Part shown: positions 40,258-56,563 of the stretch, piece after piece
Position numbering within the stretch: position 1 is the stretch's first letter
Layout of the letters: every line of letters starts with the position of its first letter
Source: Burkholderiales bacterium
Lineage (GTDB): Bacteria; Pseudomonadota; Gammaproteobacteria; Burkholderiales; WYBJ01
Direction of reading: 5' to 3'
Length of the DNA stretch: 64,000 nucleotides
Assembly: GCA_020848435.1 (NCBI GenBank)
Contig: JADLAC010000027.1
Span: 1-64,000 of the forward strand
Notes under the pieces: generated by a model
Told to the model about the DNA's origin: nothing
The model's database searches: none
Seen by the model: the letters and a program-made list of their open reading frames with translations, nothing else
Made by a program: the position numbers and the translations under genes

Positions 40258-40300
40258 ATCATAGGGCGCGCGGCGCGCGGGGGCTCTTGACCGCGATCAA
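40258..40300 (-). promoter_or_regulatory. FNR-type activator box and -10 for oxc
   Basis: The box TTGACCGCGATCAA at 40287-40300 matches TTGAT-N4-ATCAA at 9 of 10 positions. The minus-strand -10 TATGAT is at 40258-40263, exactly 23 bp from the box, so the box centre falls near -42 from the predicted start (about 40251), the class II activator position. The same layout occurs before fhs and sucC. The box is also about 82 bp upstream of a TATACT that may serve the divergent regulator, so autoregulation is possible. Confidence 0.75.
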
Positions 40301-40363
40301 GATCCGCCTCCCGAGGCAAGCGCAGCGAACGCCCACCGGCGCTGATCGGGTGGCGGAGCGCGC

Positions 40364-40369
40364 TATACT
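40364..40369 (+). promoter_or_regulatory. Possible -10 (TATACT) for the Crp/Fnr regulator gene
   Basis: TATACT lies 33 bp before the regulator ATG, which would give a leader of about 27 nt. The -35 region is poor, as expected for an activator-dependent or weak promoter. Confidence 0.4.
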
Positions 40370-40402
40370 GGCCGTTCGCGGCGAATAGCCCGCTGTGCCA
40401 CG

Positions 40403-41020
40403 ATGTCTCTGCTCGCACCTCATCCAGAAGCCCCGATCATCCGCACGCAATTGCGGCAGAATTTTGCGTTGCGGCAGCTCACGCCCGCGCAATGGCTGGA
40501 GCTGGAGCCCCTGCTCGACATCATCGACTACGCCAAGGGCGAGTTGCTCGAGCACCAAGGCGACCGCTCGATGGAGCAGTATTTCATCCTCGATGGCATC
40601 CTGAAGCGCGTCGTCTCGAACGCGGAGGGCCACGAGATGATCCTGCGCTTCGCGGCCGAATCCGATATCGATACGAGCTACGCCGCCTGGCGGCTGAAGA
40701 CGCCGATTCCCTATTCCATCCGGGCCGTGACGCGTGTGCGCGCGGCCAAGCTGTCGATGGAGGAATGGGTCGGCTTCATGGATCGGCACCCGCCGGTCAA
40801 GTCGGAATTCGAGTTCCAGGTGATGAAGCTCATGAGCGAGGTGATGGCCCATGTCATCACCTTGCACCTGCTGGATGCGCCGGGCCGGGTGCAGCGTTTC
40901 TTGCGCAAGCAGGCCCGGCTGGGCGAACGGCTGCCGAAGAAGGAATTAGCCTCCTATCTCAATCTGACGCCCGAGACGCTGAGCCGGCTGAAGAAGCGCG
41001 GCAAGATCAGCGGACCCTGA
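40403..41020 (+). CDS. Crp/Fnr-family transcription regulator, cysteine-free, with FNR-type recognition helix
   Basis: This is 205 aa. An N-terminal cNMP-binding-type beta-roll (about 20-120, FILDGILKRVVSN) is followed by a dimer helix (about 132-158) and a C-terminal helix-turn-helix (about 162-200). The recognition helix reads PETLSRL: Glu191, Ser194 and Arg195 coincide with the E-x-x-S-R residues with which FNR contacts TTGA. There is no cysteine, so it cannot carry the FNR Fe-S cluster; the sensed signal is unknown. It is divergent from oxc with a TTGA-type box between them, and matching boxes precede fhs and sucC. I infer it controls oxalate/formate genes. Confidence 0.85.
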   Translation: MSLLAPHPEAPIIRTQLRQNFALRQLTPAQWLELEPLLDIIDYAKGELLEHQGDRSMEQYFILDGILKRVVSNAEGHEMILRFAAESDIDTSYAAWRLKTPIPYSIRAVTRVRAAKLSMEEWVGFMDRHPPVKSEFEFQVMKLMSEVMAHVITLHLLDAPGRVQRFLRKQARLGERLPKKELASYLNLTPETLSRLKKRGKISGP

Positions 41021-41048
41021 TCGCTTGGAATCGGCAGGCGGCGTCCGC

Positions 41049-42542
41049 TCAGCCGTAACGCAGGCGAGCGATCAAGCTGGCGCCGAGCGGCCAGAACAGC
41101 AGCACCAGCGCCAGCGCGGTAATGCCGCCCACCAGGGCGTTGGAGAAAAAGATGCTCACGTCGCCCTGGGACATCAACATCGACTGGCGGAACGAGTCCT
41201 CGGCGCGATCGCCCAGCACCAGGGCGAGCACCAGCGGCGCCAACGGGTAATCGAGCTTCTTGAAGACATAGCCGATCACGCCGAACAGCAGCATCAACCA
41301 GATATCGAGCATCGCGTTGTGCACGGTGTACGCGCCGATCGCGCAGATCACGATGATGACGGGCGCGATGATCGAAAACGGCACCCGCAGAATCGCCGCG
41401 AACAAGGGCACGCAGGTCAGCACGACGATGAGGCCGGCCAGGTTTCCCAGGTACATGCTGGCGATGAGGCCCCAGACGAAGTCCTTTTTCTCGACGAACA
41501 GCAACGGGCCGGGCTGCAATCCCCAGATGAGCAAACCGCCCAGCAGCACGGCGGCGGTCGGGCTTCCAGGCACGCCGAGCGTGAGCATCGGCAGCAACGC
41601 GCTGGTGCCGGCGGCGTGCGCCGCGGTTTCGGGCGCCACCACGCCCTCGACCTGGCCGGTGCCGAACTTCGGACCGTTGCGGGAAACGCGCTTGGCCACG
41701 CCGTAGCTCATGAACGACGCCGGGGTCGCGCCCCCGGGCACGATCCCCATGGCGCAGCCGATCAGGCAGGCGCGCAGCGACGAGGTCCAGTAGCGCGGCA
41801 GCTTCGCCCAGGTTTCGAGCACGATGCGCGAATTGATCTTCGCTTGCTTGCCTTGGAAGGCCAAGCCTTCTTCCATAGACTGCAAGATCTCGCCGATCCC
41901 GAACAGTCCGATTACCGCGACCAGGAAGTCGAATCCGCGCATCATCTCGGTCCAGCCGAAGGTGAGGCGCAACTGCCCGGTCACCGTGTCGATGCCCACC
42001 GCCGCCAGGGCGAAGCCGATCATCATGGCGGCGATGATCTTGAACGGCGCACCCTTGCCCAGACCGACGAAGCTGCAGAACGTGAGCAGGTAGACCGAGA
42101 AGAACTCGGGCGGTCCGAATTTCAGCGCGAAGCTCGCGACCAGGGGCGCGAGGAAGGTGAAGACGATGACCGCGAACAGCGCACCGACGAAGGAGGAGGT
42201 GAACGCAGCCGTCAAAGCCTCGCCGGCGCGCCCCTGCTGGGCCATGGGATAGCCGTCGAAGGTGGTCGCGACCGACCAGGGCTCGCCAGGGATGTTGAAC
42301 AGGACCGAGGTGATCGCGCCGCCGAACAACGCGCCCCAGTAGATGCACGAGAGCATGATGATGGCGGAGGTGGGCGGCATGGTGAAGGTCAGCGGCAACA
42401 GGATCGCAATACCGTTGGCGCCGCCGAGCCCCGGCAGCACGCCGATCACGACCCCGAGCAGGATGCCCACGAACATGAGCAGCACGTTGAGCGGCGACAA
42501 GGCCACCGCGAACCCATGGAACAGCGCGTTCAGCTCTTCCAC
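41049..42542 (-). CDS. tctA: Tripartite tricarboxylate transporter, large membrane subunit TctA
   Basis: This is 497 aa with about 11-12 hydrophobic segments. The family motif GVLPGLGGANGIAILLPLTF lies in the first third, and the equivalent repeat (GIVPGGATPASFMSYG) in the second half. TctA with TctB forms the inner-membrane channel driven by ion gradients; TctC captures the carboxylate in the periplasm. The start is GTG. It is the last gene of tctC-tctB-tctA. The substrate is not readable from sequence; the oxalate genes beside it make a di- or tricarboxylate likely. Confidence 0.92.
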   Translation of the reverse strand: MEELNALFHGFAVALSPLNVLLMFVGILLGVVIGVLPGLGGANGIAILLPLTFTMPPTSAIIMLSCIYWGALFGGAITSVLFNIPGEPWSVATTFDGYPMAQQGRAGEALTAAFTSSFVGALFAVIVFTFLAPLVASFALKFGPPEFFSVYLLTFCSFVGLGKGAPFKIIAAMMIGFALAAVGIDTVTGQLRLTFGWTEMMRGFDFLVAVIGLFGIGEILQSMEEGLAFQGKQAKINSRIVLETWAKLPRYWTSSLRACLIGCAMGIVPGGATPASFMSYGVAKRVSRNGPKFGTGQVEGVVAPETAAHAAGTSALLPMLTLGVPGSPTAAVLLGGLLIWGLQPGPLLFVEKKDFVWGLIASMYLGNLAGLIVVLTCVPLFAAILRVPFSIIAPVIIVICAIGAYTVHNAMLDIWLMLLFGVIGYVFKKLDYPLAPLVLALVLGDRAEDSFRQSMLMSQGDVSIFFSNALVGGITALALVLLFWPLGASLIARLRYG

Positions 42543-42621
42543 GAGGCGGTCCTCTTCGCGACGCGCGAAATCGCGGCTATCGATGTGCCGCCGTCGCGGC
42601 GCCCACCGGCTTCGACTGGCA

Positions 42622-43131
42622 TCAGTACCCCAGGAATGCGAGCGGATCGAGCATGCCTTTGTACAGGGGCACCTTGAACCACACTTCGAACATGAGGAAG
42701 AACGCCGCCATCACGCCGCAGCCGATCGCGCCTGAGAGCAGGGCAGAGTAGCGTCCGAGCCAGATCATGAATACGGCGATGTAGGCAGCGGACGCGATAT
42801 AGATGCCGATGAGCTGTATCCCCAGCACGTAGACCGCTGCGGGCCCGAGCACTTGCAGCACGCGACGCAACGCCGGCCACGAAACGAACACCCTGGGGCC
42901 GGCATGCTTGCCCACGAGGGCATAGAGCAGCACCACCGTGGCGCAGACGCAAATGATGGCGCCGATATAGAACGGGAAGTATCCGGCTTGCGGCCCGTCG
43001 CTCGCCCACTTGGAGCCCAGGCGAATGCTATCGAACACCACCATGGCGCCGAGTGCGAATATGGCCCCTGCGACAATGATCTCGACCGCCCGCGTCGATA
43101 CGCCGCGGGCGGTGTCCGCGCCACGATTCAC
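42622..43131 (-). CDS. tctB: Tripartite tricarboxylate transporter, small membrane subunit TctB
   Basis: This is 169 aa with four hydrophobic segments, typical of TctB, and the family segment FDSIRLGSKWASDGPQAGYFPF. The start is GTG with GGGAGG 7 nt upstream. It lies between tctC (83 bp) and tctA (79 bp) on the same strand. It is needed with TctA for transport. Confidence 0.88.
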   Translation of the reverse strand: MNRGADTARGVSTRAVEIIVAGAIFALGAMVVFDSIRLGSKWASDGPQAGYFPFYIGAIICVCATVVLLYALVGKHAGPRVFVSWPALRRVLQVLGPAAVYVLGIQLIGIYIASAAYIAVFMIWLGRYSALLSGAIGCGVMAAFFLMFEVWFKVPLYKGMLDPLAFLGY

Positions 43132-43214
43132 GCTCGAACCTCCCTTGCCACGTCAGTCACGCCGGCGCAGCGTTGCACCGCGCGAGCGGTGCGCCGCCGG
43201 GCGCTGGAGCGGCA

Positions 43215-44219
43215 TCACTTAGCCAGGAACCCCGCTTCCTTCATCAGAGTGCGATGCGTGCCTTCGGCCCCTTCCACCCACTTCACATATTCCGGGCCGC
43301 TCATGAACGTGGTGTTGAATGCGCCGTCGGACATGAATTTCTTCCACTCCGGTGTCTCGCGGACCTTGCGAAAGACATCGACATAGTAAGCAACGGCATC
43401 CTTGGGCGCCGCCGGGGCGGCGAATATCCCCCGCAGCATCACGTAATCCACCGGCACGCCGGCTTCCTTGCACGAGGGGATGTCGTTCCAGGACTGGTCC
43501 TTGGTGATCTTGTCCTTGTACGGCATGCGATCGTGGTCGAACACGCACAGCGGCCGCAGCTTGCCGGCGCGCCATTGCGCCACCGCTTCGATTGGGTTGT
43601 TCACCGACGAATCGATATGCTTGCCGACGAGCTGCACGGCCACCTCGCCGCCGCCCTTGAAGGGGATATAGGTGAACTTGGCGCCGGTCGCCTTTTCCAG
43701 CGCGACCGTGATGATCTGGTCTTCCTGTTTCGAGCCGGTTCCGCCCATCTTGAACTTGTTGGGACCTGCCGCCTTCACCGCCGCGATGTAGTCCTTGGCG
43801 CTCTGGTGCGGCGTCTCGGCATTGACCCACAGCACGAACTGGTCGAGCGCGAGCATGGCCACCGGGGTGAGATCCTTCCAATTGAAGGGTACGCCAGTCG
43901 CAAGCGGGGTAGTGAACAGGTTCGACAAGGTGATGACGATCTTGTGTGGATCGCCCTTGGCTTCCTTGATGGCGAGAAAGCCTTCCGCGCCGGCGCCGCC
44001 CGACTTGTTGACGACGATGAGCGGTTGCTTCATGAGGTTGTTCTTCTGCACGATACCCTGCAGCAGGCGCGCCATCTGATCGGCGCCGCCGCCGGTGCCG
44101 GCCGGCACGATGAACTCCACCGGCTTGGTGGGCTCCCACGCGAACCCGGGGCTCGACAACCCCAGCCCACCGGCGAGCGCGATCGCGAGCGTGCGCGCCG
44201 CACGCTTGAGCATTGTCAT
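43215..44219 (-). CDS. tctC: TctC/Bug-family periplasmic solute-binding protein
   Basis: This is 334 aa with a signal peptide ending around SPGFAWEP (residues 1-29). The Bug fold motifs are FIVPAGTGGGADQMARLL (ligand-loop 1) and VVNKSGGAGAEGFLAIKEAKGDPH. This lineage differs from common Bug proteins (no PGAGG). The start has AGGAGG 5 nt upstream; an in-frame Met 2 codons later is possible. It is the first gene of tctCBA; a candidate FNR-type box lies about 100 bp upstream. Confidence 0.88.
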   Translation of the reverse strand: MTMLKRAARTLAIALAGGLGLSSPGFAWEPTKPVEFIVPAGTGGGADQMARLLQGIVQKNNLMKQPLIVVNKSGGAGAEGFLAIKEAKGDPHKIVITLSNLFTTPLATGVPFNWKDLTPVAMLALDQFVLWVNAETPHQSAKDYIAAVKAAGPNKFKMGGTGSKQEDQIITVALEKATGAKFTYIPFKGGGEVAVQLVGKHIDSSVNNPIEAVAQWRAGKLRPLCVFDHDRMPYKDKITKDQSWNDIPSCKEAGVPVDYVMLRGIFAAPAAPKDAVAYYVDVFRKVRETPEWKKFMSDGAFNTTFMSGPEYVKWVEGAEGTHRTLMKEAGFLAK

Positions 44220-44319
44220 GATGTCCTCCTCGACTGTAGATGGCACTGCTGCCGCGAGCCCCTTCTATCGTGCACCCGCGAGCAGTCCTGGAATATCGCC
44301 CAAAGCACGGTCCGAAGAA

Positions 44320-44333
44320 ATGACCGAGATCAA
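44320..44333 (-). promoter_or_regulatory. Weaker FNR-type box upstream of tctC
   Basis: The plus strand reads ATGACCGAGATCAA, i.e. the boxes of fhs and oxc with the first T lost (minus strand TTGAT-N4-GTCAT). At the 23-bp distance the hexamer (ATATTC) is a poor -10. It is a possible fourth member of the regulon, much less certain. Confidence 0.3.
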
Positions 44334-44438
44334 GTTCACCTCCGGGCCGCCGGCGCGTACGCGTTCGACCCTGCGTGCTTCGGCGCGGGCTGCCCATCGG
44401 GCCGCCAAGCTCGCGGCTCGCCGCTACGGCGCTGCCGC

Positions 44439-44882
44439 CTAGCGGTAGACCAGCACCGGAATCTTGGAATGGGTCAGGACCTTCTGGGTTTCGCTACCCA
44501 GCAGCACGCCGGCAATACCACGGCGGCCGTGCGAGGCCATGAATATCAGGTCGCACTTGTACTTGGCGGCCGCCGCCATGATGGCATCTGCGGGAAACTC
44601 GTTGGTGGCGTGGACGCCCCGGAATGGCACGCCTGCCTTCTCGCATGCCTTCTCGATGACGCCGAGATACTTCGCGGCGGTCTTTTCGATCATTTCGGCG
44701 TGGCGCTCGGGCGTGGTATAGCCCACCGGCAGAATGCCTTGATAAACCAGCGGGGTCGCGGCAGGGGCAGCGAAGAATGCGGTCACGCGCGCGCCCAAGG
44801 CGCGCGCCAGCTTGACGCCATTCAGCGCCGCGGCGCGCGACAGATCCGAACCGTCGGTCGGGATGAGAATGTGCTTGTACAT
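44439..44882 (-). CDS. Universal stress protein (UspA family)
   Basis: This is 147 aa with the Usp fold: N-terminal YKHILIPTDGSDLSR and the C-terminal ATP-binding signature SHGRRGIAGVLLGSETQKVL, then IPVLVYR. Such proteins bind ATP and dimerise in the cytosol during stress or anaerobiosis. AAGGAG precedes the ATG. It lies 33 bp after the ion permease gene, so it is likely co-transcribed with the two transporters. A second Usp is encoded at 58441. Confidence 0.92.
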   Translation of the reverse strand: MYKHILIPTDGSDLSRAAALNGVKLARALGARVTAFFAAPAATPLVYQGILPVGYTTPERHAEMIEKTAAKYLGVIEKACEKAGVPFRGVHATNEFPADAIMAAAAKYKCDLIFMASHGRRGIAGVLLGSETQKVLTHSKIPVLVYR

Positions 44883-44915
44883 GGCTCTCCTTCTGGCGGC
44901 GATGCCGCGGCTCGT

Positions 44916-46229
44916 CTACTTCACGTAGGGCAGCACCCAGATCAGCATGCCGAGCGCGTAACAAATGATCGAGCATATGATCGTAAAGGGAATGCTCCAG
45001 GACAAGAACTCCCGCAAAGAAACCTTGCGACCCTCCTCTTTCTCGCCCAGGCTCAAAGCGACGTAGAGCGCCGGTGCGCCGGCCACCGTCAGGTTGCTGC
45101 CGAGCGTTCCGGACCACAGCAGCATCCACCACAGCGGCCAGGGTTCGATGCCCCCCTGGGCCATGTCCTTGATGGTATGCAGGAAGGTGAGGATATAGGC
45201 GTCGTGCTCGACGATGCCGACGATCGGCACCGTAATCCAGTAGAGCAGCGTCGCCCCGAGCGCATAGTTCTCCTGAAACACGGGACGGAGCGCTGCGGCG
45301 AGCTTGTCGAGGATGTGGCTTTTCTCCAGCCCGCCCACCAGCGCAAACAGGGCGATATAGAAAAAGATGGCGCGCCAGTCGAGCTCCTGCAGCACCTCTT
45401 CGAAGCTCGAGGTCTTCACCCGCTCGCCGAGCAGGGTAAGCACGAGCACCAGCGATAGCGCGCCCGTGAGCGCGATGAAGCCGAGCTGCACGCCGATGTG
45501 CTCGCGCATCGACATGGCGACCACGGTGCCCAGAAACCAGACGACGACCACGGTGGCGAACAGCGGATTGGGAATCCTCGCCTCGACGCCGAGCGAGCTC
45601 AGATCGGTCACGCGCCGATGCCCGCGGAAGCCGTACAGCCACATGGCGACGAGCGTGATCAGGAACGTGGCCATCAGGATCGGAAACGAGGATGGACGGT
45701 TGAACTGCCAGATGAAATCGAAGAACTCCGCACCCGCCACGCTATGCAGCATCTGCGGCGGCAGGTCGCCGATGATGAGCGCCGTGCCCATGAAATTGGC
45801 GCCGAAGCCGATCATGAGAATGACCGGCACGACCGGCAATCCGATCGCGCGCGCAAGCGGCAGCGCAACCGGGGCCATCATCAGGATCGTCACCACGTTG
45901 TCGACGAACATCGAGATGAAACCGGCGAGGAAGGTCAGAATGATGACCAGCAGCCCCGGCCGCCCGCCCGAGAGCTTGAGCGCTTGGATCGACAGCCAGC
46001 TCGGCACCCCCGACTTGCCGAAATAACCCGCGATGATCCAGATGCCGACCAGGATCGCCATGACGTTCCAGTCGACATAGTTGAACGCATCGGTCTCGGT
46101 CATGATCCCGATCCAGCACATGAGCGCCACGCCGATCAGCGCGGCCAAGGTGCTGTCGATGACGTTGGTGATCACGACCAGGATCGTGAGACCGAACACG
46201 ATCAAGGTTACCCACTGCATCATTTCCAT
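44916..46229 (-). CDS. ArsB/NhaD-superfamily ion transporter (CitMHS-type permease)
   Basis: This is 437 aa with about 11-12 hydrophobic segments. Two inverted repeats each carry the superfamily motif: FVDNVVTILMMAPVALPLAR in the first half and VGIVEHDAYILTF in the second. The superfamily moves Na+/H+, arsenite, citrate or dicarboxylates across the inner membrane. The second-half motif deviates (EHDAY instead of DN), so substrate specificity is open. It starts 4 bp after the preceding transporter of the same superfamily and precedes the Usp gene. Confidence 0.8.
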   Translation of the reverse strand: MEMMQWVTLIVFGLTILVVITNVIDSTLAALIGVALMCWIGIMTETDAFNYVDWNVMAILVGIWIIAGYFGKSGVPSWLSIQALKLSGGRPGLLVIILTFLAGFISMFVDNVVTILMMAPVALPLARAIGLPVVPVILMIGFGANFMGTALIIGDLPPQMLHSVAGAEFFDFIWQFNRPSSFPILMATFLITLVAMWLYGFRGHRRVTDLSSLGVEARIPNPLFATVVVVWFLGTVVAMSMREHIGVQLGFIALTGALSLVLVLTLLGERVKTSSFEEVLQELDWRAIFFYIALFALVGGLEKSHILDKLAAALRPVFQENYALGATLLYWITVPIVGIVEHDAYILTFLHTIKDMAQGGIEPWPLWWMLLWSGTLGSNLTVAGAPALYVALSLGEKEEGRKVSLREFLSWSIPFTIICSIICYALGMLIWVLPYVK

Positions 46230-46233
46230 CGAG

Positions 46234-47670
46234 CTATCTCCCTGTGATTCCTTCCGCGGCATCGATCCGGGGCAAACGAGGGGTGTCGGTCACGCCGATC
46301 CGTACGGCTTCGACCGCCGCGGCGGTGGGCTTCTCTCGTTTCTCGCTCGGATGCCAGCCCAATAACGCGAGCATGACGAAAAAGCCGACGATGTAGGCCA
46401 CCGTGACAAACCAACCGTGCTTCACCCACGCGCCGACCGACTTGGCCTGTGGGTACATGTTCGAGAGCGCGACGCCCGCGGACGAACCGAACCAGATCAT
46501 GGAGCCGCCGAAGCCGACGGTATACGCGAGCATGCCCCAGTCGTAACCGCCCTGTTTCAAAGCCAGCGCCGTCAGCGGAATGTTGTCGAACACCGACGAG
46601 ATGAATCCCAACCCGAACGCGGTCTGCCACGACGCGGCCGGCAGCTTCTCCACCGGCATCATCGAGGCGCAGCTCACCAGCGCGAGCAGAAAGATGCTGC
46701 CCTTGAATGCATCGGGCAGCAGCGACCACTGCGGCCGGCGCCAGCCGGCGGTGAGGATGATCGCGGCCCAGACGGCAAGCCCGATCGCGGGCAGGCGATC
46801 GCTCAGCTCGGGTGCCTGCGTGTTGAGCAGCACATTGGCGGCAATCGCCGCGATCAGAATGATCGCGACGATGAAGATGCGTGGCCAGTCGACGCGAGCC
46901 CCGGTCACCTCGTCTTTCGTAATGGGCGCGAACTTCTGCTGCAGAATGGCCGCGGGAATGCCGGTGACGACAACCGCCGCGCCGGCCGCGATGAATGCCG
47001 GCAACACGGCGGTCGCCGCGACGCCGTCGATCCACATCATCGTGGTCGTGGTATCGCCGACGACGCTGCCCGCGCCCCCGGCGTTGGAAGCAGCGACGAT
47101 CGCCGCCAGATAGCCGATGTGCACCTTGCCGCGGAATACCACGCCCGCGATGGTGCCGCCGATCAAAGCCGCCGCGATATTGTCCAGGAACGAAGACAGA
47201 ACGAAGATGAGCAGGAGCAGGACGAAGGCGCCCTTCCAGTCGTCGGGTAGAAATCGCGGCAGCAGCGCAGGCACGCGGCTTTCCTCGAAGTGTTTCGACA
47301 GCAAGGCGAAGCCGAGCAGCAATCCCAGCAGGTTGGTGAGGATGACCCACTCGTGGGCGAAATGTGTTCCCAGCCCGGCCAGGCCGTCACCCGTCTTGAA
47401 CCCGGTGAAGCCGAGCTTGTAGCCGATGATGGCGCCAAGCCCGGTCAACGCGACGGCGAGCGTGTGATGGTGAAACAGTCCGACGCCGATCAGGGTCAGC
47501 GCGAACAAGATGAAATCGACCGGTATGCCGAAAACGGTCGGTCCGTCCGCCGCGGTGGCGATCAGCGGGTACGCATAGAGTAACCCGCCCAGCGCCAAGG
47601 GTCCCCTCAGCGGCTTCGCCGCGTGCGCGGCGCGCGCGCGATCCTGGCTCGAGGCCTTCCTTAACGCCAT
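46234..47670 (-). CDS. NhaD-type sodium/proton antiporter-like permease
   Basis: This is 478 aa with about 12 hydrophobic segments. Both halves carry the NhaD/ArsB motif: SSFLDNIAAALIGGTIAG and SSVFDNIPLTALALKQGG. Between them is VVGDTTTTMMWIDG, as in NhaD. These exchange Na+ (or Li+) for H+ in the inner membrane. The Met used is preceded by GGGAG; an alternative Met lies 20 codons upstream. It heads a nhaD-permease-usp unit. Acid-anion uptake next door could benefit from the sodium cycling (inference). Confidence 0.82.
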   Translation of the reverse strand: MALRKASSQDRARAAHAAKPLRGPLALGGLLYAYPLIATAADGPTVFGIPVDFILFALTLIGVGLFHHHTLAVALTGLGAIIGYKLGFTGFKTGDGLAGLGTHFAHEWVILTNLLGLLLGFALLSKHFEESRVPALLPRFLPDDWKGAFVLLLLIFVLSSFLDNIAAALIGGTIAGVVFRGKVHIGYLAAIVAASNAGGAGSVVGDTTTTMMWIDGVAATAVLPAFIAAGAAVVVTGIPAAILQQKFAPITKDEVTGARVDWPRIFIVAIILIAAIAANVLLNTQAPELSDRLPAIGLAVWAAIILTAGWRRPQWSLLPDAFKGSIFLLALVSCASMMPVEKLPAASWQTAFGLGFISSVFDNIPLTALALKQGGYDWGMLAYTVGFGGSMIWFGSSAGVALSNMYPQAKSVGAWVKHGWFVTVAYIVGFFVMLALLGWHPSEKREKPTAAAVEAVRIGVTDTPRLPRIDAAEGITGR

Positions 47671-47993
47671 GCGCTGCTCCCTAAGTCTGACGGCCGGTGT
47701 CCTTGTCGGCGCATCCGGTCGAAGCGCCACCCGGACTTATTCCGGCGGCATTCTCACGTCACGTGTCTTACGGGCAAAGGTCTCGCTTGCAGCGCATGCC
47801 GGCGCGACCGGGAACGCCGTGACCCGGCTTTCCGTGATGACGGCCGCGCCGCGGCAGCATGGGATCGCTGCCGTAGCTACTCCCCTTTGGAGTTGCTTCC
47901 AGGGGCTGGCCCGGACGCAGTGCGGTTTTTATCACGCGCTCTTCGAAGGCGTCAACCGAACGGCGCAATCGAATCGATCTGCGGCGCGCGCTT
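47671..47993. other. 323-bp intergenic stretch between fhs and the antiporter gene
   Basis: No credible gene was found; short frames here lack family features. On the plus strand at 47882-47905 there is an imperfect hairpin (CCCCT...AGGGG with inner GGA/TCC) without a U-run on either strand. The promoter of the antiporter operon should be here, but no clear hexamers or FNR-type box were seen. Confidence 0.5.
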
Positions 47994-49667
47994 TCAAAAC
48001 AGCCCGACCACCTTGCCCTCGTCGTCGACGTCGATCTTCTCGGCCGAAGGGACTTTCGGCAATCCGGGCATGGTCATCATGTCGCCGCAGATCATGACGA
48101 CGAACTCGGCGCCGGCGGCGAGCCGCACTTCGCGCACGTTGACCACATGGCCGCTCGGCGCGCCGCGCACGTTCGGGTCGGTCGAAAACGACGACTGCGT
48201 CTTGGCCACGCACACCGGGTAGTGGCCGTAGCCCGACTCCTGCAGCTCCTTGATGCGGTTGCGCACCTTGGTGTCGGCGGTGATGTCGCTCGCCCCGTAG
48301 ACGCGGGTGGCGATCTTCTTCATCTTCTCCCACAGCGTATCCGAATCCTCGTACACGAACGTGGGCCGGGACTTCTGCTCGCACAGCTCCACCACCGTGC
48401 GCGCCAGGTCCGCGGCGCCCTTGCCGCCGTCGGCCCAATGCGTGGCCACGACGACTTTCACCCCGAGCTTGCCGATGCGATCGGTGAGCAGATCCATCTC
48501 GGCCTGGGTATCCGCGGTGAAGCGGTTGATCGACACCACGCAGGCAATGCCGTAGGTCTCTTTCACGTTGCGCACGTGGCGCTCGAGGTTGGCCAGGCCC
48601 TTCTCCAGCGCCGGCAGGTTCTCCACGTTGAGCTGCGCCCGCTCGACGCCGCCGTGGTGCTTGAGCGCGCGCACGGTCGCAACGATGACGCCGGCATTGG
48701 GCGTGAGCCCCGCCTTGCGGCACTTGATGTCGAGAAACTTCTCGGCGCCGAGATCGGCGCCGAAGCCTGCCTCGGTCACCACGTAGTCGGCCAGCTTGAG
48801 CGCGGCCTGGGTCGCGGTCACCGAGTTGCAGCCGTGCGCGATGTTGGCGAACGGTCCGCCGTGGATGAACGCGGGATTGTTCTCCAGCGTCTGCACCAGG
48901 TTCGGCGCGATCTGATCCTTCAGCAGCACCGTCATGGCGCCGTGCGCCTTCAGATCGCGCGCGCGCAGCGCCTTGCCGTCGCGCGTATAGCCGAACACGA
49001 TGTTGCCCAGGCGCTGCTTCAGATCTTTGAGCGAAGTGGCCAGGCAGAAGATCGCCATCACCTCGGACGCCACCACGATATCGAAGCCGTCTTCGCGCGG
49101 GTAACCGTTGGCCGTGCCGCCGAGCGAGCAGACGATGTCGCGCAGCGCCCGGTCGTTCATATCCATCACCCGCCGCCAGGTGATGCGGCGCGCGTCGATG
49201 CCCAGCTCGTTGCCGTGGCTGATGTGGTTGTCGATCATCGCGGCGAGCAGGTTGTTCGCGAGCGCGATGGCGTTGAAGTCGCCGGTGAAGTGCAGGTTGA
49301 TGTCTTCCATCGGCACGACCTGGGCGTAACCGCCGCCAGCGGCCCCGCCTTTCACGCCGAAGACCGGGCCGAGCGAGGGCTCGCGCAAGCAGATCATCGC
49401 CTTCTTGCCGATGTGATTGAGCGCATCGCCGAGCCCGACGGTGGTGGTCGTCTTGCCTTCGCCGGCGGGTGTGGGGCTCATCGCGGTGACCAAGACGAGC
49501 TTGCCGTCCGGGCGCTCCTTCAGCCCGGCGATGAAATCGAGCGAGACCTTGGCCTTGTAATGCCCGTAGGGCTCGAGATGCGATTCGCCGATGCCGAGCT
49601 TCGCGGCGACCTCGACGATGCGCTGCATCTTCGCCCGCTGGGCGATCTCGATGTCGGATAAGGCCAT
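47994..49667 (-). CDS. fhs: Formate-tetrahydrofolate ligase
   Basis: This is 557 aa. It joins formate to THF with ATP, giving 10-formyl-THF in the cytosol. Diagnostic motifs are: P-loop [13 protein letters not shown] (near residues 58-70), [21 protein letters not shown]-type segment ([13 protein letters not shown]), [22 protein letters not shown] and [14 protein letters not shown]. It is full length (about 555-560 typical). GAGGAG lies shortly before the Met used. It stands alone as a transcription unit with its own FNR-type box and -10; it links formate from Oxc/Frc to one-carbon metabolism. Confidence 0.96.
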
Positions 49668-49739
49668 GTCCTCGCTCCTCGCAGGTTCGCACAATCGCCG
49701 AGTGCGCCCGGCACCGGCCGCGGCTTCGATAGGGCCGCA

Positions 49740-49782
49740 ACTATACTGGGCCGCACAACGCAGCGCTCTTGACCGAGGTCAA
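49740..49782 (-). promoter_or_regulatory. FNR-type activator box and -10 for fhs
   Basis: The box TTGACCGAGGTCAA is at 49769-49782 (perfect TTGAC/GTCAA arms). The minus-strand -10 TATAGT is at 49740-49745, 23 bp away. The predicted start is near 49733, 66 bp before the fhs ATG, with the box centre near -42. Confidence 0.75.
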
Positions 49783-49883
49783 TTTTCCCCCGCGCGCGCC
49801 GCTCGCGGGTCACACCGGGTGCGCCAGCGCGGTTCGTCGAATGCTGCGTCCGCGGCGGCCGCTGACAGACAACGCGTGCCGAT

Positions 49884-52694
49884 CTAGCCCGTGTGCGCGA
49901 GCGCCAGCACCTGCCCGCCGCCGTAGGACGAAAGCGGTGTCAGCTCGCCGCCCTTGCTGACTTGCACCGCGCAGTACTTGAACTCGGGAATCTTGCCGAA
50001 TGGATCGAGCGCCGGATTGGTCAACAGGTTCGCGGCCGCCTCGTAGAAACAGAAGGGGATGAACACCGCGCCGAGCGGCGTGCCGTCGTCGGCGCGCGCG
50101 TACAGTGTGACCTGGCCGCGCCGCGACCGTACCGTGATCACGTCGCCCGCGTGCACGCCTAGGCGTTCGAGCTCGAGCGGATGCAGCGATGCCGTCGCCT
50201 CAGGCTCGATGGCATCGAGCACGCCCGAGCGCCGCGTCATGGCCCCGGTATGCCAATGCTCGAGCTGGCGCCCCGTGATGAGCACCAGCGGATAATCCGC
50301 ATCCGGACGCTCGGCGGCCGGAATGATGTCGGCGGGGACGAAGCGCGCCTTCCCCGTCGGCGTGGGGAAGCCGTCGATGAACACCACCGGCTCGCCCGGG
50401 TCGCCCTCTTGGAGGCAGGGATAGGTGACGCAGCCCTCGGCCTCGAGCCGGCTCCAGGTGATGCCAGCGATCGAGGGCATGGCCTTGCGCATCTCTTCGA
50501 ACACGTCTTCGGGCCCGGTGTAGTTCCAGTCCAGGCCCAGGCGCTGCGCGATCTGCTGGATGATCCACAGGTCGGGCATGGCATCGCCGGGCGGATCGAG
50601 CGCCTGGCGTCCGAGCTGCACCATGCGATCGGTATTGGTCACCGTACCGGTCTTCTCCGGCCATGCGCTCGCGGGCAGGATGACATCGGCGTGGTAGCAA
50701 GTCTCGGTCAGGAAGATCTCCTGTACCACCAGGAAATCGAGCGCCGCGAGCGCGTCACGCGCGTGGTGTGCGTCGGGATCGGACATCGCGGGGTTCTCCC
50801 CCATGATGTACATGCCGCGGATCTCCTTCGCGCGGGCGGCATTGACGATCTCGACCACGGTCAGACCGCGCTTGGCATCGAGCGAGGCGCCCCACAGCGA
50901 TTCGAACCTGGCGTGCGCCTTGGGATCGTCCACGAACTGGTAATCGGGGAATACCATCGGGATGAGACCCGAATCAGACGCCCCCTGGACGTTGTTCTGG
51001 CCGCGCAGGGGATGCAATCCGCAGCCCGGCCGCCCGACCTGGCCCGTCATCAGGCACAGCGCGATCAGGCAGCGGGCGTTGTCGGTGCCGTGGACATGCT
51101 GCGAGATGCCCATGCCCCACAAGATCATCGAAGCACGCGAGCGCGCGTACAGGCGCGCCACCGCCTTGATGGTTTCGGCCGCTATGCCGCACACCGGCGC
51201 CATCGCCTCGGGGCTGTAGCCCTCGACGTTCTTGCGCAGCTCCTCGTAGCCGATGGTGCGGCTGGCGATGAACGCCTCGTTCACCAGGCCCTCGTGCACG
51301 ATGGTGTGCATCATCGCATTCAACAGCGCGACATCGGTATCGGGCTTGAACTGCAGGTGGTAGGTGGCGTGACGCGACAGATCGGAGCGGCGCGGATCGG
51401 CGTAGATCAATTTCGTGCCGCGTTTGACCGCGTTCTTGATCCAGGTCGCGGCGACCGGATGATTCGAGGTCGGGTTGGCGCCGATGAGGAAGATCACCTC
51501 GGCATGGGCGACGTCGTTCACCTGGTTCGAGACCGCCGCCGAGCCGATGCCTTCGAGCAACGCGGCCACCGACGAGGCATGACACAGCCGCGTGCAATGA
51601 TCGACGTTGTTGCTGCCGAAGCCGGTACGCACCAGCTTCTGGAACAGGTATGCCTCCTCGTTGCTGCCCTTGGCCGAGCCGAAACCCGCCAAGGCACGTT
51701 TGCCGTGGCTGTCGCGGATGTGGCGCAGCTTCGCTGCGCTCAGCGCGAGTGCCTCGTCCCAGCTCGCCTCGCGGAACACCTCCATTGGTTTGGCGGGATC
51801 CATGACGAAATCGCCGCTTTTCGGCACGCCGGGCTTGCGAATGAGCGGGCGCGTGAGCCGCTGCGGATGGCTCACATAGTCGAAGCCGTAGCGGCCCTTG
51901 ACGCACAGCCGGCCACGATTCGACGGACCGTCGCGCCCCTCGACGTAGAGGATGCGATCGTCCTTGACGTGATAGGTGAGCTGGCAGCCCACGCCGCAGT
52001 ACGGGCAGACCGAATGCACCTGGGCGTCCGCCACTTCCATGCCGACATCGCCGGCGGGCATCAGCGCGCCCGTCGGGCACGCCTGCACGCACTCGCCGCA
52101 GCCCACGCAGGTGGACGCGCCCATCGGATCGTCAAAATCGAACACTATCTTGGAATGCGCGCCGCGGAACGCGTAGCCGATGACATCGTTGACCTGCGCT
52201 TCCCGGCAAGCGCGCACGCAGCGCGTACACTGGATGCAGGCGTCGAGATGCACCGCGATGCCGTGGTGCGAAGCGTCGGGCGCGGGCTGAGCGCGCGGGA
52301 CGAAGCGCGGGCTCGTCACCTTGAGCTTCTTCGCCCAGCGATCGAGCTCGCTGTCGAGCCGATACGAACGCTCGGGCATGTCCGCGGCCAACAGCTCCAG
52401 CACCATCGCCTGCGAGTTGCGCGCGCGCTCGCTGTCGCTCGTGACCTCCATCGCGGGCACGGGCTTGCGGCAGCACGAGGCCGCCAGCACGCGCTCGCCC
52501 TTGACCTCGACCATGCACGCCCGGCAGTTGCCGTCCGGGCGCAGGCCCGGCTTATAGCACAGGCGCGGAATCTCCACCCCGGCGCGCTCGGCCGCCCGCA
52601 GGATGGTTTCATCGCCGAAGGCAAGGATGTCCTTGCCGTTGAGCTTGAACGCAATGGGCTCGGGCTTGGGTGCGGCCGCGGTCAGGGTGGTCAT
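49884..52694 (-). CDS. fdhA: NAD-dependent formate dehydrogenase, alpha (molybdopterin) subunit
   Basis: This is 936 aa. Residues 46-74 give a 2Fe-2S site (C46, C57, C60, C74). Then come a His-Cys cluster region and two 4Fe-4S sets (CIQCTRCVRAC and CVGCGECVQACPTG), followed by the molybdopterin domain starting CPYCGVGC. The metal-ligand region DHCTRLCHASSV has Cys, not selenocysteine. The C-terminal MGD-binding domain has HWHTGAMTRRSG. It oxidises formate to CO2, passing electrons through the clusters to the beta subunit's FMN and NAD+. Overall layout is that of FdsA/Fdh1A. It starts 7 bp after the beta-subunit gene. Whether Mo or W is used cannot be read. Confidence 0.93.
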   Translation of the reverse strand: MTTLTAAAPKPEPIAFKLNGKDILAFGDETILRAAERAGVEIPRLCYKPGLRPDGNCRACMVEVKGERVLAASCCRKPVPAMEVTSDSERARNSQAMVLELLAADMPERSYRLDSELDRWAKKLKVTSPRFVPRAQPAPDASHHGIAVHLDACIQCTRCVRACREAQVNDVIGYAFRGAHSKIVFDFDDPMGASTCVGCGECVQACPTGALMPAGDVGMEVADAQVHSVCPYCGVGCQLTYHVKDDRILYVEGRDGPSNRGRLCVKGRYGFDYVSHPQRLTRPLIRKPGVPKSGDFVMDPAKPMEVFREASWDEALALSAAKLRHIRDSHGKRALAGFGSAKGSNEEAYLFQKLVRTGFGSNNVDHCTRLCHASSVAALLEGIGSAAVSNQVNDVAHAEVIFLIGANPTSNHPVAATWIKNAVKRGTKLIYADPRRSDLSRHATYHLQFKPDTDVALLNAMMHTIVHEGLVNEAFIASRTIGYEELRKNVEGYSPEAMAPVCGIAAETIKAVARLYARSRASMILWGMGISQHVHGTDNARCLIALCLMTGQVGRPGCGLHPLRGQNNVQGASDSGLIPMVFPDYQFVDDPKAHARFESLWGASLDAKRGLTVVEIVNAARAKEIRGMYIMGENPAMSDPDAHHARDALAALDFLVVQEIFLTETCYHADVILPASAWPEKTGTVTNTDRMVQLGRQALDPPGDAMPDLWIIQQIAQRLGLDWNYTGPEDVFEEMRKAMPSIAGITWSRLEAEGCVTYPCLQEGDPGEPVVFIDGFPTPTGKARFVPADIIPAAERPDADYPLVLITGRQLEHWHTGAMTRRSGVLDAIEPEATASLHPLELERLGVHAGDVITVRSRRGQVTLYARADDGTPLGAVFIPFCFYEAAANLLTNPALDPFGKIPEFKYCAVQVSKGGELTPLSSYGGGQVLALAHTG

Positions 52695-52701
52695 CGGGGT
52701 T

Positions 52702-54384
52702 TCACTCGATTTCGTCGGCGAAATACTTCATCACGCAGCGCAGCGGATTCGGCGCCGCCTGGCCCAGCCCGCAGATCGACGCATCGGCCATCACGGCGGA
52801 CAACTGCTCGATGAGATCCTGGTCCCACAGCGGGTCCTCGATCAGGCTGAGAGCCTTGGCGGTACCGACGCGGCAAGGCGTGCACTTGCCGCACGACTCG
52901 TCGGCGAAAAAGCGCATGACGTTCATGGCCGCGTCGCGCGCCCTGTCGGCCTGCGACAGCACCATGATCGCGGCCGAACCGATGAAGCAGCCGTAGGGCT
53001 GAAGTGTGTCGAAATCGAGCGCGACATCGGCCAGGCTCGCCGGCAGGATGCCGCCTGAAGCGCCGCCCGGGAGATACGCGTACAGCCGGTGCCCATCCTG
53101 CATGCCGCCGCAGTATTCGTCGATCAGCTCGCGCACGCTGATGCCCGCGGGCGCGAGGTGAACGCCGGGTTTCTTCACCCGCCCCGAAACCGAAAACGAG
53201 CGCAGTCCCTTGCGCCCGCGCCGCCCGTGCCCGGCGAACCAGTCCGGCCCCTTTTCCAGGATCTCGCGCACCCAGTACAGGGTTTCCATGTTGTGCTCGA
53301 GGGTGGGACGATCGAACAACCCGAGCTGCGCGACGTACGGCGGACGCAGCCGCGGCATGCCGCGCTTGCCTTCGATCGACTCGATCATGGCCGACTCTTC
53401 GCCGCAAATGTATGCCCCGGCACCGCGCCGCAACTCGATCCGCGGCAGCGGCGCGGGCGGATCGGCTTGCAGGCGTTGCAGCTCGCGGCCGAGGATTTCG
53501 CGGCAACCGGCGTATTCGTCGCGCAGGTAGACGTAGCACGCCTCGATGCCGACGCACCAGGCCGCGATCAGCATGCCTTCCAGGAATCGGTGCGGATCGC
53601 GCTCGAGATAGAACCGATCCTTGAAGGTGCCGGGCTCGCCTTCATCGATGTTCACCGCCATGAGCCTCGGCGGCGGTTCGGAGCGCACCAGGCGCCACTT
53701 GCGCCCGGCCGGAAAACCCGCGCCGCCAAGCCCGCGCAACCCCGAGCCCTCCATGGCCTGCATGAGCGTTTCGGCATCGCGTTGTCCGGCCATGCATTGC
53801 GCATAAAGCGAATAGCCACCGCTCGCACGGTACGCGTCGTAATCGACATAGGTTGCGACCGGACAGCGCAGCCGTTTCGTCTCCACCAGCGGCTTCACCT
53901 TCTCGGCGCTCGCCTGTGGCACCGGATTCTGCCCCACCACGGCGACCGGCGCCTGCTCGCAGCGGCCGACGCACGGCGCGGAAACGACGCGCACGTCGGC
54001 GCCGAAACACTCCCGCAGGCTCGCCAGCAGCGATTTCGCACCGGCGAGCTCGCACGCGAGCGAATCGCACACGCGCACCGTGATCGGCGCGGGCGGCGCG
54101 TCGCCATCCTTCAGCACGTCGAAGTGATGATAGAAGGTCGCGACCTCGAACACTTCGGCCGGAGCCAGATCCATTTCGCGCGCCAGTGCGACCAGGTGCG
54201 GCGCCGACAAATGGCCGAAGTGGTCCTGCAGCTTGTGCAAGTGCTCGAGCAACAGGTCGCGCCGGCGCGGCGCATCGCCCAGCAACTCGAGCACCTCCGC
54301 CAATGCCCGCGGATCGAGCGCCCGGCCCTTGGGAAGCGCACGTGCGCGCCGCGATCCGCGTAGCGCGGGCTTGTGTTCACCCAT
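52702..54384 (-). CDS. fdhB: NAD-dependent formate dehydrogenase, beta subunit (NuoE-NuoF fusion)
   Basis: This is 560 aa. The NuoE-like part (about 20-165) has Cys pairs CDSLAC and CVGRC for a 2Fe-2S cluster. The NuoF-like part has the FMN/NADH site GLGGAGFPAGRKW, NIDEGEPGTFKDR and GAGAYICGEESAMIES, and a 4Fe-4S site ESCGKCTPCRVG. A fused NuoE-NuoF diaphorase is as in the two-subunit Fdh1 of Methylorubrum; most FdsGB enzymes have two genes. It reduces NAD+. It lies 45 bp after sucD and 7 bp before fdhA. No fdsC/fdhD-type chaperone gene is adjacent. Confidence 0.92.
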   Translation of the reverse strand: MGEHKPALRGSRRARALPKGRALDPRALAEVLELLGDAPRRRDLLLEHLHKLQDHFGHLSAPHLVALAREMDLAPAEVFEVATFYHHFDVLKDGDAPPAPITVRVCDSLACELAGAKSLLASLRECFGADVRVVSAPCVGRCEQAPVAVVGQNPVPQASAEKVKPLVETKRLRCPVATYVDYDAYRASGGYSLYAQCMAGQRDAETLMQAMEGSGLRGLGGAGFPAGRKWRLVRSEPPPRLMAVNIDEGEPGTFKDRFYLERDPHRFLEGMLIAAWCVGIEACYVYLRDEYAGCREILGRELQRLQADPPAPLPRIELRRGAGAYICGEESAMIESIEGKRGMPRLRPPYVAQLGLFDRPTLEHNMETLYWVREILEKGPDWFAGHGRRGRKGLRSFSVSGRVKKPGVHLAPAGISVRELIDEYCGGMQDGHRLYAYLPGGASGGILPASLADVALDFDTLQPYGCFIGSAAIMVLSQADRARDAAMNVMRFFADESCGKCTPCRVGTAKALSLIEDPLWDQDLIEQLSAVMADASICGLGQAAPNPLRCVMKYFADEIE

Positions 54385-54429
54385 CTCGAAACGCCTTTCG
54401 TGGAGCGATTCTAGGAGCCAGGCAGCTAG

Positions 54430-55305
54430 CTACAGCACCGACTGGAGCAAGCGCCCCATTTCCGCCGGATTGCGCGTGGTCTTGATGCCGCATTCTTCCA
54501 TGATCGCGAGCTTTTCCGCGGCCGTCCCCTTGCCCCCGGAGATGATCGCGCCGGCGTGACCCATGCGCTTCCCGGGCGGCGCGGTCACCCCGGCGATGAA
54601 CCCGACCACGGGCTTGCGCATGTTCGCCTTGACCCAGCGCGCCGCCTCCTCCTCGTCCGAGCCGCCGATCTCGCCCACCATCACCACGGCTTCGGTCGAC
54701 GGATCGTCGTTGAACATGCGCATGACATCGACGTGCTTGAGACCGTTGATCGGGTCGCCGCCGATGCCGACGCAGCTCGATTGGCCGAGACCGAGCGCGG
54801 TCAACTGGCTCACGGCCTCGTAAGTCAGCGTGCCCGAGCGCGACACCACCCCGACCGGCCCTTGCTTGTGAATGTGCCCCGGCATGATGCCGATCTTCAA
54901 TTGGTCGGGGGTGATGACGCCGGGACAATTGGGCCCGATCAATAGTGTTCTCTTACCGCGCATGCGATAGCGCGTCCGGATCATGTCGCGTACCGGAATT
55001 CCCTCGGTGATGCAGATCACCAGGTCGAGATCGGCGTCGACCGCTTCCTCGATCGCCGCCGCCGCATAGGGCGGCGGCACGTAGATGACCGAGACGTTGG
55101 CGCCGGTTTGCGCTTTGGCTTCGCGCACGGTATTGAATATGGGCACCCCTTCGAACGCCTGGCCGCCCTTGCCCGGCGTGACGCCGGCGACGTAGCAGGC
55201 ACGCCCGTTCGCGTACTTGATCCCCGCGCTGGTGTGGAACTGACCGGTCTTGCCGGTAATGCCTTGGGTGAGGACCCGCGTCGCCTTGTCGATCAGGATG
55301 GCCAT
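54430..55305 (-). CDS. sucD: Succinyl-CoA synthetase, alpha subunit
   Basis: This is 291 aa. It carries the CoA-binding N-terminus ([20 protein letters not shown]) and the catalytic phospho-His region [25 protein letters not shown] and [12 protein letters not shown] are typical. With SucC it interconverts succinyl-CoA and succinate with nucleotide. The sequence follows SucD closely rather than malate-CoA ligase MtkB. It starts 1 bp after sucC's stop. Its position before formate dehydrogenase, not with sucAB, suggests a role tied to C1/oxalate metabolism. Confidence 0.94.
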
Positions 55306-55306
55306 C

Positions 55307-56473
55307 TCATTGCCCCTTGGCCGCCGCGATCACCTTCTGGGCGGCGTCGGCCATGTTGGCCGCCGCTATCGTGGCGAGCCCCGATTGCGCCAGGATGGTC
55401 TTGCCAAGCTCGACGTTCGTGCCTTCGAGGCGCACCACCAGCGGCACCTTGAGCGACACCTGGCGCGCGGCCTCGACCAGCGCGGTGGCGATCACGTCGC
55501 ATTTCATGATGCCGCCGAAGATGTTCACCAGGATCGCCTTCAGCTCCGGGTTGCGCAGCATGATCTTGAACGCTTCGGTCACGCGCTCTGCGGTCGCCCC
55601 GCCGCCTACGTCGAGAAAATTCGCCGGGGCGCCGCCGTAGAACTTGATGATGTCCATGGTCGCCATGGCGAGCCCCGCGCCGTTCACCAGGCAGCCGATG
55701 TCGCCCTGGAGCTGGATGTACGACAGGTCGTGCTTGGAGGCTTCGATCTCGGCCGGGTCCTCTTCGTCGAGATCGCGCAATGCGGCGATCTCCGGATGAC
55801 GATAGAGCGCGTTGTCATCGAAGTTCATCTTGGCATCGAGCGCCAGCACGCTGCCCTGCCCGGTGAGGATCATGGGATTGATCTCGGCGAGACTCGCGTC
55901 GGTGCCGTCGAATGCCCGGTAGAGGTCCTGCAACAACGTGCGCGCTTGCGGCAGCGCGCTGTGCGCAATGCCGATCTTGCGCGCGACCTCGTCGGCGTGC
56001 GCGTCGCTCAAGCCGGCGAACGGATCGATCGCCACCTTGTGAATCTTTTCCGGGGAGTTGGCGGCCACCTCTTCGATGTCCATGCCGCCCTCGGCGCTCG
56101 CCATCAACACCACGCGCTGGGAGACGCGATCGACCACCATGCCGACGTAGTACTCCTGGCGGATATCGGCGCCCTCTTCGACCAGCAGCCGGCGCACGGT
56201 CTGCCCCGCCGGACCGGTCTGGTGGGTCACGAGCTGCATGCCGAGGATGGTGCCGGCGTGCGCCCGCAGCTCCTCCTCGGAGCGTGCGAGCTTCACGCCG
56301 CCGCCCTTGCCGCGGCCGCCGGCGTGAATTTGCGCTTTCACCACCCATACGTTGCCGCCGAGCTTGCGCCCTGCCTCGACCGCTTCGTCGACGGAGAAGC
56401 ACGCGATGCCGCGCGGCGTGGGCACGCCGAACTTCCTCAATACCTCTTTGGCCTGGTATTCGTGGATTTTCAT
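55307..56473 (-). CDS. sucC: Succinyl-CoA synthetase, beta subunit
   Basis: This is 388 aa. The ATP-grasp N-terminus is [20 protein letters not shown], with [15 protein letters not shown] as the nucleotide site and [18 protein letters not shown] and [11 protein letters not shown] near the subunit contact. It ends like SucC. It heads the sucCD-fdhBA operon; a FNR-type box and -10 lie upstream. The alternative, malate thiokinase MtkA, was considered, but the residues follow SucC. Confidence 0.94.
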
Positions 56474-56520
56474 CTCAACTCGATCGGACCCGTGCGATGC
56501 GGCCTCGAGCGCGGCAATCC

Positions 56521-56563
56521 AATCTAATCGATCGGCGCGCGGCCGCACCTTGACCGCGGTCAA
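56521..56563 (-). promoter_or_regulatory. FNR-type activator box and -10 for the sucCD-fdhBA operon
   Basis: The box TTGACCGCGGTCAA is at 56550-56563, a perfect palindrome with TTGAC/GTCAA arms. The minus-strand hexamer TAGATT (56521-56526, 4 of 6 to TATAAT) is 23 bp away; the start is expected near 56514, about 41 bp before the sucC ATG. Spacing is the same as for oxc and fhs. Confidence 0.7.

Follow-up and report, generated by a model that had tools for sequence, protein, structure and literature searches.

Transcription activators of the Crp/Fnr family that serve a single pathway are a known kind of regulator, and several described members can be set beside the one considered here, which is encoded next to the oxalyl-CoA decarboxylase gene (oxc) of a Burkholderiales bacterium and for which we coin the name CrpL. 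Class II activators of this family bind near position -41.5. FNR (PRK11161/NF008365) resembles CrpL in its superfamily, in the E--SR pattern of its recognition helix, in the TTGA-N6-TCAA half-sites and in its class II placement near -41.5. Unlike FNR, CrpL has no cysteine cluster, no C-terminal wing and no match to the FNR family model NF008365; its putative site has the core TTGACCGNGGTCAA, as against TTGATNNNNATCAA for FNR, and its predicted targets are oxalate and formate genes, whereas those of FNR belong to respiration. DNR of Pseudomonas aeruginosa (PDB 3dkw), the NO-responsive regulator of denitrification, is likewise FNR-like and free of the cluster, and ranks among the closest solved sequences (E = 6e-7) and folds; however, its identity to CrpL is about 20%, and no denitrification targets are found here. 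With CRP (PRK11753), CrpL shares the cNMP-binding fold, the dimerisation helix and, as a mode, class II activation. CRP reads TGTGA, though, and its cAMP contacts Glu72, Arg82 and Ser83 correspond in an ungapped alignment to Ser92, Ile102 and a proline in CrpL; on the ground of these replacements, cAMP was rejected as the ligand of CrpL. The best sequence match in the PDB, at E = 2e-9 only, is the cyclic nucleotide-binding regulatory protein 3dn7, which is colinear with CrpL and, like it, has little sequence beyond the recognition helix; we know of no link between it and oxalate.

On the side of the pathway, the best comparison is Cupriavidus necator, which no longer grows on oxalate when frc-oxc is deleted and whose ApbA2 is a CoA-acylating glyoxylate dehydrogenase (PMC7486775). 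The frc-oxc operon of that organism encodes the same enzymes as the window (the whole 64 kb stretch of DNA analysed here), and PMC7486775 mentions no Crp/Fnr regulator. Our search of the open full-text literature on oxalate, oxc and frc genetics, outside which lie subscription journals and regulon databases, found no such regulator either. We found no description of the CrpL subfamily, its site or its regulon within the open literature searched, and the regulation of bacterial oxalate degradation in general seems equally undescribed there. Bacteria that live on oxalate are of importance to soil carbon and, in the case of Oxalobacter, a gut bacterium that degrades dietary oxalate, to the risk of kidney stones. 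The present analysis offers a specific candidate regulator gene, a site precise enough to predict promoters, and a defined regulon that would couple oxalate energy metabolism to C1 assimilation.

The CrpL protein

The gene crpL (40403..41020, plus strand) is divergent from oxc and encodes 205 residues. The N-terminal cNMP-binding domain is recognised by PF00027 (E = 3e-9; 37.2 bits, cut-off 27.5), and the C-terminal helix-turn-helix scores 20.2 bits with PF13545, below the cut-off of 27. In the AlphaFold2 model (pLDDT 80.8, with low values in residues 71-90, those of residues 80-88 being below 50), the last helices span residues 179-185 and 190-198, and the protein ends there. Comparison of the model with GlxR, CRP, DNR and FNR by Foldseek gave a probability of 1.00 over about 200 columns, with TM scores of only 0.43-0.56; the predicted overall fold is thus that of the Crp/Fnr superfamily.

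Even the nearest sequences of known structure, those of 3dn7, DNR and CRP, are distant, and CrpL scores 35.6 bits with the CRP model PRK11753, whose cut-off is 266. CrpL itself contains no cysteine, and no conserved cysteine cluster is found in 102 orthologues. In the recognition helix, E191-T-L-S-R-L is invariant; the residues E191, S194 and R195 form the E--SR pattern, which also occurs in the FNR of the same genome (TLETVSR).

Boxes, promoters and genes in the window

Three intergenic boxes of 14 bp, all on the minus strand, are each followed after exactly 23 bp by a -10 hexamer. The box of the oxc-frc promoter (TTGACCGCGATCAA, or TTGATCGCGGTCAA as read on the minus strand; 40287..40300) is paired with TATGAT (40258..40263), that of fhs (TTGACCGAGGTCAA; 49769..49782) with TATAGT (49740..49745), and that of sucCD-fdhBA (TTGACCGCGGTCAA; 56550..56563) with TAGATT (56521..56526); the hexamers agree with TATAAT at 5/6, 5/6 and 4/6 positions, respectively. 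Boxes, hexamers and distances are exactly those listed by an earlier sequence-only reading, which missed a fourth and weaker site. This degenerate box, TTGATCTCGGTCAT (44320..44333, minus strand), lies 100 bp before tctC, and its score in the window alone, with a matrix from other genera, is not above background.

The pattern TTGACCNNGNTCAA matches these three sites in the whole 64 kb and no others; in dinucleotide-shuffled windows the mean was 0.02, and three sites were never reached. The whole genome holds 59 sites of the form TTGAYNNNNRTCAA and none of the reversed control pattern. When 54 sites of this genome were ranked by a matrix trained on oxc and frc sites of other genera, the three window boxes took ranks 1-3, in the order fhs, sucCD-fdhBA and oxc, with scores of 30.6, 22.1 and 19.6, followed by the next site at 17.0. 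For sites outside the window, membership of the CrpL set was judged by this ranking only.

The genes behind the boxes are all on the minus strand. Oxalyl-CoA decarboxylase is encoded by oxc (38363..40111; NF006721 and TIGR03254, both far above cut-off), whose start is placed at the ATG at 40111 in preference to 40255, because the latter abuts the -10 hexamer; downstream of it stands frc, for formyl-CoA transferase (37033..38301; TIGR03253 above cut-off). Formate--tetrahydrofolate ligase is the product of fhs (47994..49667; PF01268, and NF010030 above cut-off). The third box precedes sucC and sucD, for the beta and alpha subunits of succinate--CoA ligase (55307..56473, NF001913, and 54430..55305, NF004230, both above cut-off), then fdhB (52702..54384) and fdhA, the molybdopterin-containing alpha subunit of formate dehydrogenase (49884..52694; TIGR01591 above cut-off). 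The assignment of fdhB as the fused NuoE/NuoF-like subunit of an NAD-type formate dehydrogenase is based on similarity and position, as it scores below the NuoF cut-off and adjoins fdhA. A tripartite tricarboxylate-type transporter is represented by its membrane subunit tctA (41049..42542; PF01970, E = 8e-150) and its substrate-binding receptor tctC (43215..44219; PF03401). In relatives, tctA is retained next to crpL, and it is a candidate importer whose substrate would be oxalate. Between fhs and tctC (44916-47730) lie genes for a CitMHS-type transporter and an NhaD-like antiporter, which are retained in relatives of the same genus and show no box of their own.

Conservation of the boxes and co-occurrence with crpL

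The comparison covered 80 loci of crpL orthologues from contigs and further loci from whole genomes. Because these were found via crpL, the linkage of boxes to crpL is partly a matter of selection; the evidence from co-occurrence, from FNR-less genomes and from Oxalobacter, given below, is free of it. Nearly all the orthologue loci adjoin oxc and/or frc, and the box between oxc and crpL is conserved. In 103/111 loci (some genomes counted twice), the 400 bp before crpL contain a TTGAYNNNNRTCAA box, at a median of 68 bp from the crpL start; two crpL genomes of one family (f8) have no full box. Counted by genomes, the first gene behind a box is oxc in 59, tctC in 31, frc in 15, fhs in 7 and an OxlT-like antiporter in 4, the antiporter family having been confirmed on one relative.

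The promoters are conserved in the same detail. The fhs and sucC boxes keep their positions and their own -10 forms in several families, TATAGT of fhs being shared by L300, L301, L303 and L305-L307, and TAGATT of sucC by L301, L308 and L309; the sucC box is also in place in L303. The profile of -10 elements behind the boxes has a single sharp peak at 22-23 bp, which persists when relatedness is thinned to one vote per crpL cluster, and the oxc-directed promoters of relatives have no -35 element. With the site 22-23 bp from the -10, its centre near -41.5, and no good -35, these are class II promoters in form, as the sequence-only reading had proposed. That reading had named two findings that would speak against it, namely boxes not conserved at orthologous genes and a 14-mer as frequent as chance allows; the comparison instead gave conservation with the same spacing, and the shuffles and the genome-wide count gave an excess over chance. 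At oxc-directed sites the extended consensus consists of an A-rich flank and TTGACCGNGGTCAA.

The tctC boxes of the 31 relatives have the exact form and mostly lack a -10 at the class II distance. Judging from the motif, the predicted regulon is supported as also including tctC and, in relatives, frc, oxlT, other formate dehydrogenase operons and, once, thiC. This single case is Oxalicibacterium solurbis (L312, 2630-4806), in which a perfect box lies ahead of a TPP riboswitch and thiC; it suggests that synthesis of the Oxc cofactor may be tied to oxalate use.

Among 300 Burkholderiales genomes, crpL was found in 54, oxc in 51 and both in 46 (one-sided Fisher p = 5e-40, related genomes not being independent); five oxc genomes of the sample have no crpL. 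A box lies beside oxc in 26/26 loci from genomes with crpL and in 0/4 from genomes without it, four being all the crpL-less oxc loci examined.

In an Oxalobacter genome the two genes are far apart. This genome (G389) we assign to O. formigenes, or to a species very close to it, because its Oxc is identical at 551/552 residues to PDB 2c31, the O. formigenes enzyme. Here oxc lies about 235 kb from crpL, so that linkage cannot explain a box at oxc, and it is preceded by four tandem boxes spaced at exactly 24 bp, with CATACT 23 bp beyond the last box; the arrangement recurs in a congener. Two other genes, one of the frc family beside crpL and one for a second TPP enzyme, also have boxes before them, with TATGAT at 23 bp. 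The four-box array (L354, 1308-1393; L355, 1304-1393) is replaced by a single box in other species of the genus, and may tune a very high expression of Oxc.

The probable reader of the boxes and a proposed mechanism

We propose that CrpL acts at class II promoters as a transcription activator devoted to oxalate catabolism, a reading of the comparative sequence evidence to which we assign a probability of roughly 0.85. The readings that compete with it differ in what they take the boxes to be. That they are chance palindromes, or -35 elements beginning with TTGAC, can hardly be entertained, even though TTGACC resembles the -35 consensus TTGACA: only 0.02 such sites are expected in the window, and a -35 element belongs 17 bp from the -10, where GAGCCC, GAGCGC and GGTGCG stand at the three promoters, all unlike TTGACA. 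This explanation was rejected on the shuffles and on the sequence at the -35 place, and it is refuted by the conservation of the boxes at orthologous promoters. A more serious competitor holds that they are ordinary FNR/DNR-type sites through which the oxygen-sensing FNR controls oxc, fhs and sucCD, with crpL a mere neighbour. The box indeed has the TTGA....TCAA form of FNR sites, the genome encodes a genuine FNR (NF008365 over cut-off) as well as an FNR-like protein with the E--SR helix, and some of its other TTGAYNNNNRTCAA sites precede FNR-type, microaerobic targets (ccoN, hemN/fnr, UspA- and CBS-type genes, named by eye). With these two proteins and the 59 sites in the genome, a different approach to excluding FNR was needed, and genomes that lack it provide one. 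Seven of 35 crpL-bearing genomes have no FNR homologue (E ≤ 1e-10), yet six of the seven retain TTGACYNNRGTCAA boxes, 2-4 per genome, and 13/20 of the boxes in FNR-less genomes lie within 20 kb of crpL, against 0.2 expected. The complete 1.7 Mb genome G033 has a box between crpL and oxc, and CrpL was the single PF00027 protein detected in it. G300 has four sites genome-wide; they stand before crpL, a formate dehydrogenase operon, oxc and frc, and three of these lie on a contig other than that of crpL. The four oxc genomes examined without crpL are also without the box, and the oxalate boxes have a core of their own, CCGNGG, that sets them apart from the other sites of the genome, FNR and CrpL boxes differing mainly in core and flanks. 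FNR as the sole reader is rejected on the retention of boxes in FNR-less genomes, and we consider its control of these genes, with crpL a bystander, very improbable.

The boxes, then, persist independently of FNR, and we conclude from these comparisons that CrpL probably reads the oxalate boxes, with additional or shared occupancy by FNR possible. Some cases count against this reading: G249 has crpL and no TTGACYNNRGTCAA in its genome, G328 has the oxc box and crpL was not detected in it, the two f8 genomes have crpL and no full box, and most tctC boxes have no -10 at the class II distance. The sequence-only reading had pointed to the 40403 protein as the likely reader and to a single regulon of Crp/Fnr type that covers oxc, fhs and sucCD-fdhBA, and on both points the comparative evidence sides with it; its label 'FNR-type' suits the form of the box and not the protein, which lacks conserved cysteines and whose boxes outlast FNR. 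CrpL might also bind the boxes as a repressor that is lifted by an inducer: a site next to a promoter could block the polymerase and, at a median of 68 bp from the crpL start, might act on crpL itself. Against this stand the fixed distance of 22-23 bp from the -10 and the missing -35, which is the pattern of activator-dependent class II promoters, and the tandem array of Oxalobacter, which ends at the same spacing and also suits activation. We give repression a very small chance. If a Crp-like protein without a cluster indeed reads this FNR-like box, predictions of FNR regulons in Betaproteobacteria call for caution.

For CrpL as an activator, we infer direct binding, activation and the following roles of its targets. 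A CrpL dimer would bind the palindrome TTGACCGNGGTCAA, the centre of which would lie some 41.5-42.5 bp before the transcription start, and help sigma-70 RNA polymerase at promoters without a -35 element. It would turn on the uptake of oxalate (tctCA here, oxlT elsewhere), its activation and decarboxylation (frc, oxc), and the oxidation (fdh) and assimilation (fhs) of the resulting formate. SucCD perhaps supplies succinyl-CoA, and this link would be chemically sensible because succinyl-CoA could prime the CoA transferase. The signal is probably a metabolite of the pathway, e.g. oxalate, oxalyl-CoA or formyl-CoA, rather than cAMP or an Fe-S cluster. A bolder version seems possible to us, without our leaning towards it: CrpL may found a wing-less Crp-like subfamily, whose pocket would sense oxalyl-CoA, formyl-CoA or oxalate, and may govern oxalotrophy throughout Burkholderiales as its master activator, also in O. 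formigenes with its four-box oxc array.

Some further genes near boxes were noted. About 15 kb beyond the window, on contig C27 of the same genome (L156, 10449-14958), genes for the gamma, alpha, beta and ferredoxin-type subunits of a 2-oxoacid:ferredoxin oxidoreductase, named by eye, stand behind a TTGACGCAGATCAA box, which has a low CrpL score and is more likely an FNR site. A reductase of the PanE/ApbA family adjoins oxlT and oxc in several clusters (L315, 14782-15792; L317, 5692-6702), and is likely the counterpart of C. necator ApbA2, acting in the conversion between oxalyl-CoA and glyoxylate. Finally, a second TPP enzyme is encoded behind a box (L315, 2694-4460 and 19103-19900; L309, 2-943; L366, 1561-3012), in Collimonas-type genomes that lack a canonical oxc and, beside Oxc, in an Oxalobacter genome. 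Its best model is PRK05858 (acetolactate synthase), below cut-off, and not the Oxc model TIGR03254; it is a candidate for an alternative oxalyl-CoA or formyl-CoA enzyme.
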